Positions 4,305 through 7,315 of a DNA stretch of 21,385 bases are shown piece by piece. This stretch comes from a virus, in IMG/VR virus record IMGVR_UViG_3300023116_000418, positions 1 to 21,385 of that record. One strand, given 5' to 3'. The notes beneath the pieces were generated by a model. The model saw only the letters and a list, made by a program, of their open reading frames with translations, had not been told where the DNA came from and made no database searches. The first letter of the stretch is position 1; each line of letters starts with the position of its first letter. The translations under genes were made by a program, and so were the position numbers.

Positions 4305-4560
4305 AGAAGCAGAAAAATATTTTTACAAGGCCGATGGTTTCGATGAAGCTGTCATTGGCATTGCCGAAAGATGTGGCTCAGAACAAGTCATTGCATACGA
4401 CGCTGAGAAGTGCCTAGACATTCTAATGGCTCAAGGCATGGAAGAGCATGAAGCTATTGACTACTTCAACTACAACGTAGCTGGAGCGTATGTAGGCGAC
4501 AGAACCCCCGTATTTATTTTTAAACATTCAATAGAAGACATAGAGACCTATTATGAGTGA
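4291..4560 (+). CDS. Small conserved-looking phage protein of unknown function
   Basis: 89 aa, acidic and soluble, with no signal peptide or membrane segment. Visible segments are EAEKYFYKADGFDEAVIGIA (6-25), a VIAYDAEKCLDIL stretch, then HEAIDYFNYNVAGAYVGDRT (53-72) and TPVFIF. The last part matches a recurring pattern in phage genomes (a YF-x-N-x-x-GA-x-VGD-x-TP block), so I believe it belongs to a widespread but uncharacterised phage family. GGGGAG (4278-4283) lies seven bases before the ATG and sits inside the end of the DUF6378 gene. The gene overlaps the polymerase start by eight bases. A function linked to the polymerase or to host takeover is inference from position only. Confidence 0.72.
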   Translation: MTLVKEAEKYFYKADGFDEAVIGIAERCGSEQVIAYDAEKCLDILMAQGMEEHEAIDYFNYNVAGAYVGDRTPVFIFKHSIEDIETYYE

Positions 4561-6466
4561 TTCATATCAATATCATTTGTTGGCGCAAGACCTCAAAGAT
4601 GTGGCTTGGGGAAAAACAGATAGTGACTGGTCACCACCTGCTTCTCTGCCTGACCTAACACAGTACGACAGGATAGCTGTTGACCTTGAAACAAGAGACC
4701 CAAACCTGACCAAACTTGGGCCGGGGTGGTGCCGCAAGGACGGGTATATCATCGGGATAGCTGTGGCAGCAGGGGATAGCTCTTGGTATCTGCCAATCAA
4801 ACACGATGCAGGCAACCTGCCGCGTTCATCTGTGATGGCGTGGATGAAGAAGATGATGGCTACACCCAACATCGAAAAGGTAATGCACAATGCGTTGTAC
4901 GATCTTGGGTGGCTCCGAGCAGAGGGCATAGAAGTTCAGGGCAAGATCATTGATACAATGGTTGCAGCGCCGCTGCTAAATGAAAACCGCCGCTGGTATA
5001 ACTTGGATTCACTGGCCCGTGATTATCTGTCTGAGCGCAAGGATGAGAAGATACTACGCTCGGCTGCTGAAGAATTTGGTGTCAATGCCAAAAGTGATAT
5101 GTATCGTTTGCCGTCCAGATATGTTGGTCCCTACGCAGAGCAGGATGCTGCTGTTACTCTCCGGCTGTGGGATCGGTTACGCACAGACTTGGTAAAGGAT
5201 GAATGCACATCCATCTTTGAGCTAGAGTCAAGTCTGGTTCCTGTACTACTTGACATGAAAACACGCGGGGTTCGCGTGGACATGGACAGGGCAGAGCAGG
5301 TGAAGAAGGAGCTATCGGGGCGTGAGCAGGCTCTACTTAAAGAAGTAAAGGAAGAGACCGGGATCGCCATTGAGCCGTGGGTTGCGACATCTATTGCAAA
5401 AGCCTTCGACTCTGTCGGGATCAAGTACGCGACAACACCAAACACGGGAGCGCCATCTTTTACCAAACAGTTTCTTGCGAACCACGAGCATCCCCTCGCC
5501 AAAAAGATTGTGAAAATTCGTGAACTGAACAAAGCCAACACGACATTTGTTGAAACAATTCTTGAACATTCGCATAACGGACGTATTCATTGTGATTTCA
5601 ATGCCCTTCGTTCTGATGATGGCGGCACTGTAACAGGCCGCTTTTCTTCAAGCAACCCAAACCTGCAACAGATCCCGGCTCGTGACCCAGAGATCAAGAA
5701 GATGATTCGTGGCCTGTTTATACCAGAGGATGGTTGCAAGTGGGGATCGTTTGACTATGCCTCTCAAGAGCCTCGTTGGCTAGCCCACTACTGTGCCACC
5801 TTGACAGGGGTAGATCGCCACCCACAGATTGACGATGTTGTTAAAATGTACCACGAGGGAGACGCTGACTTCCACCAGATGGTGGCTGACATGGCAGAGA
5901 TCCCTCGTAAGGAAGCCAAGACTGTGAACCTTGGCATTATGTACGGCATGGGCAAGAAGAAGTTAGCTAATGTGCTTGACATCACAGAGGATGAGGCAAC
6001 GTCACTACTCAATAAATACTATGAGCGTGTTCCTTTCGTCAAAGGTCTGGCTGACATGACATCTAGATATGCGTCAGAGCGCGGTGTTATCAGAACATGG
6101 CTAGGAAGAAAGTGTCGTTTTGACATGTGGGAGCCAGTATCATACACTTACAATAAGCCGCTGCCCATGGAACAAGCCATAAAAGAATATGGTGGTAAGG
6201 GTCGGATCCGCAGAGCCTTTACATACAAAGCCCTGAACAGGCTGATTCAGGGGTCTAGCGCGGACCAAACTAAGAAAGCCATGACTGATTGTTACAGCGA
6301 AGGGCTGTGCCCCATGCTTACTGTTCATGATGAACTTTGCTTTAACATTGAGTCACAAGATCAGGCTGACCGCGTAGTCGAAATCATGTCTACTTGTGTA
6401 CCTGATTTAAAGGTTCCGTTTGATGTCGATGCGGAGCTAGGTAACAACTGGGGTGAAGTGGGATGA
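4553..6466 (+). CDS. polA: Family A DNA polymerase with 3'-5' exonuclease, Leu762 type
   Basis: 637 aa. The proofreading domain shows exo I IAVDLETR (Asp44, Glu46), exo II MHNALYDLGW (Asp117) and exo III YAEQDAA (Tyr194, Asp198), so the exonuclease looks intact. The polymerase domain has TGRFSSSNPNLQQIPAR (361-377), motif A SFDYASQEPR (Asp401), motif B RKEAKTVNLGIMYG (452-465) and motif C TVHDE (His592, Asp593, Glu594). Counting from the catalytic Lys456 (E. coli Lys758), residue 460 falls at the Phe762 position and is Leu; Tyr464 matches Tyr766. Leu762 is a known marker class among marine viral polymerases and is linked to altered fidelity and speed. No 5'-3' exonuclease domain is present, as usual for phage enzymes. 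It is the replicative polymerase of the module. The ATG overlaps the preceding gene by eight bases. Confidence 0.96.
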   Translation: MSDSYQYHLLAQDLKDVAWGKTDSDWSPPASLPDLTQYDRIAVDLETRDPNLTKLGPGWCRKDGYIIGIAVAAGDSSWYLPIKHDAGNLPRSSVMAWMKKMMATPNIEKVMHNALYDLGWLRAEGIEVQGKIIDTMVAAPLLNENRRWYNLDSLARDYLSERKDEKILRSAAEEFGVNAKSDMYRLPSRYVGPYAEQDAAVTLRLWDRLRTDLVKDECTSIFELESSLVPVLLDMKTRGVRVDMDRAEQVKKELSGREQALLKEVKEETGIAIEPWVATSIAKAFDSVGIKYATTPNTGAPSFTKQFLANHEHPLAKKIVKIRELNKANTTFVETILEHSHNGRIHCDFNALRSDDGGTVTGRFSSSNPNLQQIPARDPEIKKMIRGLFIPEDGCKWGSFDYASQEPRWLAHYCATLTGVDRHPQIDDVVKMYHEGDADFHQMVADMAEIPRKEAKTVNLGIMYGMGKKKLANVLDITEDEATSLLNKYYERVPFVKGLADMTSRYASERGVIRTWLGRKCRFDMWEPVSYTYNKPLPMEQAIKEYGGKGRIRRAFTYKALNRLIQGSSADQTKKAMTDCYSEGLCPMLTVHDELCFNIESQDQADRVVEIMSTCVPDLKVPFDVDAELGNNWGEVG

Positions 6467-6472
6467 AAAAAT

Positions 6473-6679
6473 ATGTTCGAGGCAATGGTACTGGTTTGCC
6501 TATCTGGTAACCTAGATAATTGTTTTGCGGCTGATGACACACGCGGCCCATACAAGACTATTCATGAGTGTGTTGACAGAACCACTGAGATGGCAGCGCA
6601 ATTACTTACGATAAATAAAAACCACATTGTGATGGGTGTGCGGTGTGATCCAGTTCAGCGTTCCGGAACTGGGGCCTGA
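6473..6679 (+). CDS. Small four-cysteine phage protein, function unknown
   Basis: 68 aa beginning six bases after the polymerase stop. It has four cysteines (9, 17, 33, 58) and a central GPYKTIHECVDRTTEMAAQL segment (25-44). The first ten residues are hydrophobic, but the stretch is too short for a clear signal peptide or membrane helix. The spaced Cys residues and the GPYKT-x-x-EC pattern resemble small proteins seen at this spot in other marine phage genomes. They might form disulfides or bind metal; neither is shown. GTGGGATGAAAAAAT precedes the ATG, giving a weak ribosome-binding site. The last 25 bases overlap the end of the oppositely oriented zinc-ribbon gene (6655-6822), so two coding frames share this DNA. 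Confidence 0.6.
   Translation: MFEAMVLVCLSGNLDNCFAADDTRGPYKTIHECVDRTTEMAAQLLTINKNHIVMGVRCDPVQRSGTGA
6650..6672. repeat. Inverted repeat over the convergent gene ends
   Basis: CCAGTTC (6650-6656) pairs with GAACTGG (6666-6672) over seven base pairs with a nine-base loop. It sits exactly where the last + strand gene and the last - strand gene overlap tail to tail. There is no T-tract on either strand, so it is not a canonical intrinsic terminator. It could still act as a weak bidirectional stop or RNA-stabilising stem. Confidence 0.4.
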
Positions 6680-6822
6680 CAGGTTTCACCCTGACAACAA
6701 TCATCAATCACAGCTTTACAGTAGTGACATTGCCCGTGTCCGTGCACTTGAACCACTTTTAGGGGTGATTGACAGCGCGGACAGCGATTCTCAGGGACTT
6801 GAGGGTGTAATGATACGGTCAT
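6655..6822 (-). CDS. Short zinc-ribbon protein (55 aa)
   Basis: Read on the minus strand from the ATG at 6822-6820, 55 codons end at a TGA (6657-6655). The peptide contains CPRC (14-17) and CHYC (32-35), separated by 14 residues with a VQVHGHGQ approach to the second pair. This is the spacing of a zinc ribbon. A second cysteine cluster CCQGETC (42-48) follows. Such a cysteine layout is very unlikely by chance. The frame is the last gene of the leftward block, 43 bases after the lysozyme stop, and its final 25 bases overlap the end of the rightward small gene. The upstream frame hits a stop before any other start codon, so this ATG is the only choice; the ribosome-binding site is poor. Zinc ribbons of this size in phages often bind nucleic acid or RNA polymerase; which applies here is unknown. 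Confidence 0.75.
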   Translation of the reverse strand: MTVSLHPQVPENRCPRCQSPLKVVQVHGHGQCHYCKAVIDDCCQGETCQAPVPER

Positions 6823-6865
6823 CTTAAACGAGCTCGACGAGAATTGATGTTTTTATTTAATGTTT

Positions 6866-7315
6866 TCAGTGATTTGCTAAATCACGAATTCGCTTGACCA
6901 AACGCTTTGCGCGGTTCGGAACCTGATCATGCCACCTAGAATCAACCATTTCATCGGCGGCGCGGTGCCAATCCCTTTCGTCTATACCAGCCTTCATGCC
7001 TTTAAACTTAGACAGGCGTGGGTAGCCGAGGTTGAAGCACATGTTGGCTATGACCAACTGAGCCTCTTCTGGTAGTTCATCAAAATCGTCATATAGTCTG
7101 TGGCAATCTTCGATGGTTACGAGGATGTCCAGATCAAATGCCTGCCGCACCCGTTCTTCTGATACAGATGTGCCGACTGGTTGACCATGTTCCGGATCAG
7201 CATCTTTGATTAAATGACCGATTCCAAAAGTTGGCAGGCCAAGATGGTCCAAATATATTTCGTACTTGCAGCCTTCATCGTCTGCAAGCTCTTCGCGTAA
7301 CTGATTTTTGTTCAT
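6866..7315 (-). CDS. T4-type lysozyme (GH24 muramidase), endolysin
   Basis: 149 aa. The N-terminus has the phage lysozyme catalytic pattern DDEGCKYEIYLDHLG followed by PTFGIGHLI: Glu14, Asp23 and Thr29 are spaced exactly like Glu11, Asp20 and Thr26 of T4 lysozyme. The middle contains VIANMCFNLGYPRLSKFKGM (about 89-108), the conserved helix-and-turn of the family, and the C-terminus ends RAKRLVKRIRDLANH. The enzyme cuts the MurNAc-GlcNAc bond of peptidoglycan. There is no signal peptide or signal anchor, so export would need a holin; no clear holin gene is seen nearby. The start overlaps the end of the giant virion protein as ATGA. That coupling could mean expression with structural genes, so a virion-borne role in cell entry is also conceivable, but a lysis endolysin is the simpler reading. 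Confidence 0.93.
   Translation of the reverse strand: MNKNQLREELADDEGCKYEIYLDHLGLPTFGIGHLIKDADPEHGQPVGTSVSEERVRQAFDLDILVTIEDCHRLYDDFDELPEEAQLVIANMCFNLGYPRLSKFKGMKAGIDERDWHRAADEMVDSRWHDQVPNRAKRLVKRIRDLANH
6869..6885. repeat. Perfect palindrome at the 3' end of the lysozyme gene
   Basis: GTGATTT (6869-6875) and AAATCAC (6879-6885) form a perfect 7-bp stem with a 3-base loop inside the last codons of the lysozyme gene. On the minus strand it is followed by A-rich sequence (TGAAAACATTAAATAAAAAC), not a T-tract, so it is not a standard terminator. It may be an mRNA-stabilising stem or chance. Confidence 0.35.

Follow-up and report, generated by a model that had tools for sequence, protein, structure and literature searches.

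A small zinc-ribbon gene that probably occupies a terminator-like repeat where early and late viral genes converge

We analyzed the window, a 21,385-nt stretch of marine phage DNA (IMG/VR record IMGVR_UViG_3300023116_000418), with attention to a 55-codon ORF at the point where its early (plus-strand) and late (minus-strand) gene blocks converge. We consider it probable that this ORF is a mobile, moron-like accessory gene grafted into an ancestral terminator-like repeat at the early/late convergence, and that it encodes a minimal zinc-ribbon protein with one Cys4 site (C14, C17, C32, C35) and conserved HGH and CC motifs. Comparative sequence analysis supports a real gene, a core under selection as protein, first 13 codons under selection as nucleotides, and a core whose presence varies at a junction that is conserved in other respects. 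On this explanation, the repeat would terminate transcription, and read-through would allow late expression of the gene. Because one and the same junction exists in nature with and without the gene, the idea can be tested directly.

Coding status and three zones of the gene

Translation of the minus-strand ORF from ATG to TGA yields MTVSLHPQVPENRCPRCQSPLKVVQVHGHGQCHYCKAVIDDCCQGETCQAPVPER followed by the stop codon. The preliminary description had noted CPRC, 14 residues, CHYC and a CCQGETC cluster, all of which are present in the translation, and the overlap of 25 bases with the plus-strand ORF 6473-6679 is exact (6655-6679). The gene directly upstream is, as stated there, a lysozyme, with a match to Pfam Phage_lysozyme. 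The claim that this is a genuine, easily missed zinc-ribbon gene where the two blocks converge is upheld by conservation and by the pattern of substitution, two of the checks that had been proposed. A peptide scan of IMG/VR returned 51 loci, 50 of which contain the whole core; at the 51st (L051), the ORF ends inside the core. Among 30 distinct DNA versions, the median dN/dS was 0.135 over 48 codons. Most relatives have a stop codon just upstream of the ATG. The possibility that close relatives might lack the cysteines or have a broken frame is borne out in part: the cysteine core is missing in several of them (L347, L349, L356, L359, L383 and others), but where the core is present it shows no erosion. 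As judged from their sequences, these core-less relatives are presence/absence alleles.

Table 1. Features at the convergent junction of the window.
Feature	Position	Strand	Remarks
Zinc-ribbon gene	6655..6822	-	55 codons; ATG 6822-6820, TGA 6657-6655; translation, 50 intact-core viral homologues, dN/dS
Codons 1-13 (MTVSLHPQVPENR)	6784..6822	-	homologous to the hairpin of gene-less relatives (alignment)
Cysteine core, codons 14-48 (CPRC...VHGHGQCHYC...DDCCQGETC)	6679..6783	-	sole part conserved as protein
Variable C-terminal tail and stop	6655..6678	-	overlaps, in antisense, the 3' end of the convergent gene
24-nt element, AAAAACATC(A/G)ATTCTCGTSGAGCT	6831..6854	-	lies just upstream of the ATG and forms the left arm of the inverted repeat
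Hairpin resembling an intrinsic terminator, for early (+) transcripts	6779..6858	+	then TTTTTATTT; RNA fold
Phage lysozyme (endolysin)	6866..7315	-	directly upstream of the zinc-ribbon gene; Pfam PF00959, E 4.4e-9
Convergent 68-aa gene (MFEAMVLVC...DTRGPYKTI...C...C)	6473..6679	+	partner of the conserved junction

Selection differs along the length of the gene. Across the core, mean dN was 0.043 and mean dS 0.819 (30 distinct DNA versions). Codons 1-13 had a mean dN of 0.12 and a mean dS of 0.057, values that point to constraint on this segment as DNA or RNA and not as protein. The tail beyond codon 48 varies between subgroups, and it differs among versions of 55, 60, 67 and 70 amino acids. 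The antisense frame of the core has a dN of 0.18 and a dS of 0.02, and because this is the mirror image of the minus-strand pattern, we take the minus frame to be the coding frame. The antisense ORF itself (6636-6827, plus strand) was tried as a gene and rejected: it is open, but dN is far above dS in the core region. The result is a tiny gene apparently built from borrowed parts, in which a terminator-like hairpin provides the start, antisense DNA provides the tail and a core of 35 residues is selected as protein; it would represent an unusually clear natural case of such assembly.

The junction repeat with and without the gene

The leader of the gene and its codons 1-13 coincide with the arms of a conserved inverted repeat of ~80 nt at the early/late convergence. 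The 24-nt element in the left arm, read on the plus strand, is a stem plus U-run; it is exact in nearly all loci of the window's virus group, occurs once per genome, and gave one match in the window versus none in 100 shuffles. The window hairpin folds well as plus-strand RNA (-21.2 kcal/mol, z -1.9), with a stable stem followed directly by UUUUUAUUU, and weakly as minus-strand RNA (-9.3 kcal/mol, z -0.15), and for this reason we favour a terminator acting on the early strand. The weak minus-strand fold also led us to reject a structural lock on the start codon of the late strand. A simple terminator scan, which admits loops of 3-8 bases only, missed the hairpin. An Rfam search gave no match, and neither did literature titles and abstracts for similar terminator or lysis arrangements. 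No promoter-like excess was found near the zinc-ribbon gene, where the shared junction repeat is the sole hairpin recognised. No double (compensatory) changes were seen in the stem; 94% of outer-helix cells are paired, and most positions never vary. A plain terminator would not usually be so nearly invariant, and the repeat may also function as a DNA site, for protein binding or otherwise.

Gene-less relatives have a continuous inverted repeat (AAAAACATCGATTCTCGTSGA...TGAGAATTGACGTTTTTG) between the lysozyme and the convergent gene. Most of these repeats fold at about -25 to -41 kcal/mol and a few at about -19 to -24, and with an A-run and a U-run at their ends they present a stem plus U-run on both strands, giving them the look of a bidirectional terminator. 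Genomes that bear the gene have the cysteine core in the right arm; as the core occupies this arm, the late-strand U-run is gone, and the early-strand stem and U-run are kept.

The gene-less form was recovered by two routes. A scan with the 24-nt element found contigs in which the element and the first 12-13 codons are retained but the cysteines are missing, and many relatives gathered by lysozyme similarity, with the element unused, likewise had the repeat and lacked the zinc gene. Retrieval by the element pattern favours junctions with an intact left arm, a bias that retrieval through lysozyme does not have. We compared 64 distinct junctions: the repeat contains the core in 26 and is without it in 37, and one junction was too short to judge. 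When these states are mapped onto a lysozyme tree of 74 sequences, at least six changes are needed, four of them forced by well-supported branches; the tree is unrooted and therefore counts changes without separating gain from loss. Gene-less repeats share the ending CGTTTT(T), which points to the uninterrupted repeat as the older form.

The position of the gene also varies: some relatives have it on the early strand beside the DNA polymerase, or beyond the repeat. At two loci (L396:3240-3432 and L414:3240-3432) the early strand carries a zinc-ribbon relative, flanked by DNA polymerase A and the gene for the convergent MFxA protein; the relative is on the opposite side of the junction repeat. 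One subgroup has two extra genes between lysozyme and the repeat (L021:5278-5884), encoding a 132-aa protein with one likely membrane segment and a 73-aa protein. L131 has two copies of the left arm around this block of extra genes, with a run of N nearby.

We propose that the cysteine core was placed in the right arm of an ancestral repeat resembling a bidirectional terminator, and that this repeat would now supply the leader, the start codon and codons 1-13 of the zinc-ribbon gene. Early (plus-strand) transcripts would end at the repeat. Because the late-strand U-run has been lost, late (minus-strand) transcripts could read through it and express the gene after lysozyme. We give a little less than an even chance to the proposal that a conserved terminator, already in place, came in this manner to serve as 5' leader, start codon and codons 1-13 for a mobile zinc-ribbon cassette. 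If true, one stretch of DNA acts as an early-strand terminator and as a late-strand translation start, and insertion of the cassette converts a bidirectional terminator into a one-way valve for late transcripts.

The zinc-ribbon family and its genomic neighbours

Homologs share the signature C-x2-C...VHGHxQC-x2-C...CC, and we counted 105 distinct cores. C14, C17, H27, G28, Q31, C32, C35, C42 and C43 are invariant over 83 diverse members, and four of these cysteines form two CxxC knuckles spaced for one zinc (C14-x2-C17-x14-C32-x2-C35), which suggests that the protein binds zinc. AlphaFold places strands at residues 23-26, 29-32 and 38-40 with a pLDDT of about 80 in the core (moderate confidence), predicting a small beta-hairpin zinc ribbon. 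Foldseek returned generic zinc ribbons only, none significant, with no match below E 0.5 in the PDB. No model in Pfam, NCBIfam, PHROG or PADLOC covers the family, and there was neither a match above a curated cut-off, where one was shown, nor a match consistent across the family. Single members weakly matched PriA, TFIIB, IS1595 transposase, RNA polymerase subunit P, archaeal uS14 and TniQ; these weak matches, none passing its curated cut-off, are to zinc ribbons of DNA- and RNA-handling proteins.

Profile searches extended the family to other marine virus groups and to bacterial genomes, where members were found in 18 of the 294 Planctomycetota and 6 of the 289 Alphaproteobacteria that were sampled. 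No neighbour is common to all of 20 chromosomal loci from these two groups. In some Planctomycetota (L137, L138, L152 and L157) the zinc ribbon is fused to a conserved C-terminal stretch, SLF..VF..LGG..ATV..D.L.FAL.QRLG.DLD. Searches of 50,697 phage records by tblastn with different members found no clear family member, with matches at chance level at best, and the signature peptides were not found in the literature. This is a large zinc-ribbon family that is widespread in environmental viruses and some bacterial phyla, has no clear member among the 50,697 phage records as searched and is without a model in the four protein-family libraries.

The preliminary description suggested a regulator that binds nucleic acid or RNA polymerase, and such binding is plausible. 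That description made no mention of the terminator-like hairpin at the start of the gene, of its presence and absence in close relatives or of its early-strand location in some viruses. Our leading guess at its action, tentative and put at somewhat below even, is binding, either to nucleic acid or to a host or phage protein of transcription or translation; a role in lysis ranks behind it.

The order lysozyme, zinc ribbon, convergent MFxA gene occurs in the window's group and in a second virus group that has a different gene set beyond the junction. The 68-aa product of the convergent gene has homologs in the same convergent position in both groups, is found opposite the zinc gene in several virus groups overall, and matched nothing in Pfam, PHROG or NCBIfam; it is a small four-cysteine protein with a hydrophobic start, possibly exported. 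Several relatives encode a second small CxxC protein (MNCWHCKTELIWGGDHDLEEEDEYY...; L005:6346-6501) near the polymerase end of the junction. The DNA polymerase A gene of the window (4553-6466, plus strand) matched an aminoadenine-type DpoZ model at E 1e-102, below the cut-off of that model.

Of 68 representative viral loci, 45 have an endolysin or holin no more than three genes from the family member; in 30 of 70, the next sizeable gene is convergent. Four endolysin types were seen near family members (GH24 lysozyme, Peptidase_M15_3, VanY-like and SleB/Hydrolase_2), as was GTA_holin_3TM. Other loci (L193-L196, L205-L210 and L225) have replication or nucleotide-metabolism contexts; on three viral contigs of 63-112 kb (L205, L207 and L210) the family member lies between dCTP-deaminase-like and PhoH-like genes.

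Alternative readings and known systems

We weighed four other readings of these data. The most skeptical is that the ORF is no gene and that its open frame is a by-product of overlapping features. The ORF is indeed short, it overlaps a plus-strand ORF, and the antisense frame is also open in 29 of the 30 versions; but dN/dS shows strong protein-level constraint on the core in the minus frame, the pattern is inverted in the antisense frame, and the cysteines are invariant in more than 80 diverse members. This reading is left with next to no probability, and we regard it as already refuted by the pattern of selection. A more serious alternative accepts the gene and reverses its history, with the gene present in an ancestor and lost by several deletions that each left a hairpin. 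Gene-less L389/L349 is nested among gene-bearing viruses in the lysozyme tree and keeps DNA matching the C-terminal tail. That tail DNA, however, belongs to the 3' end of the opposite gene anyway, and recombination between alleles explains the nesting equally well. The gene-less forms also share the right-arm ending at one position, and separate deletions would hardly be expected to produce it repeatedly. We judge repeated deletion unlikely, although it is the strongest of the four, and lean towards insertion of a mobile gene into the repeat.

The two remaining readings concern what the protein does. One makes it an accessory of the lysis module that works with endolysin and holin, for example in the timing or regulation of lysis. 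The frequent proximity to lysis genes of four unrelated endolysin types argues for such a role, as does recurrence of the lysozyme-zinc gene order in viruses that carry another module on the far side. Yet lysis genes are commonly the last late genes, and the link, real as a matter of position, could follow from residence at late-operon ends. The early-strand location in L396/L414, the replication and nucleotide-metabolism contexts, the bacterial chromosomal copies without an evident lysis cassette nearby, and a protein with no visible signal peptide or membrane segment all count against a lysis role, which we find improbable. Less probable still is that the protein binds phage or host transcription machinery as a terminator or antitermination factor on the junction hairpin itself. 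The gene sits inside that hairpin, the protein weakly resembles TFIIB, RNA polymerase subunit P and other nucleic-acid zinc ribbons, and the left arm is conserved at the sequence level, as a binding site would be; but the repeat is equally conserved in gene-less relatives, and many viruses and bacteria carry the gene although the junction repeat was not seen in them. Since each occurs without the other, gene and repeat are probably not functionally tied.

The closest related DNA polymerases in phage records are those of phage DSL-LC04, 023Pt_psg01 and the HTVC023P/HTVC027P pelagiphages. Pelagiphages of the HTVC023P/HTVC027P type have a related DNA polymerase A (46-51%) and a similar early gene order but, unlike the window virus, no clear zinc-ribbon relative by tblastn. 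The protein shares two CxxC knuckles and, as predicted, a beta-hairpin with nucleic-acid zinc ribbons (Pfam Zn_ribbon_PriA, Zn_ribbon_TFIIB and Zn_ribbon_IS1595; TniQ; RNA polymerase subunit P), but it is encoded as a stand-alone gene and no member passes the curated cut-offs shown; those families, to our knowledge, have neither the VHGHxQC nor the CCxGE signature. The zinc form of uS14 has the same C-x2-C-x14-C-x2-C spacing, and a VHG/IHG motif occurs in archaeal uS14, which the profile matched with an hmmsearch E of 4.8e-5. We set aside an origin from uS14, which profile-profile comparison did not support: hhalign with bacterial uS14 gave a probability of 0.8%. The zinc-ribbon protein also lacks the uS14 body.

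A further parallel is with phage morons. Like them, the zinc-ribbon gene is sporadic, lies at an operon end and has been gained or lost independently of its neighbours, as the junction counts and the changes of state on the lysozyme tree indicate. Classical phage morons bring their own promoter and terminator. No such pair was recognised at the zinc-ribbon gene, which differs from classical morons in that its leader and first codons are drawn from a terminator-like hairpin already in place.
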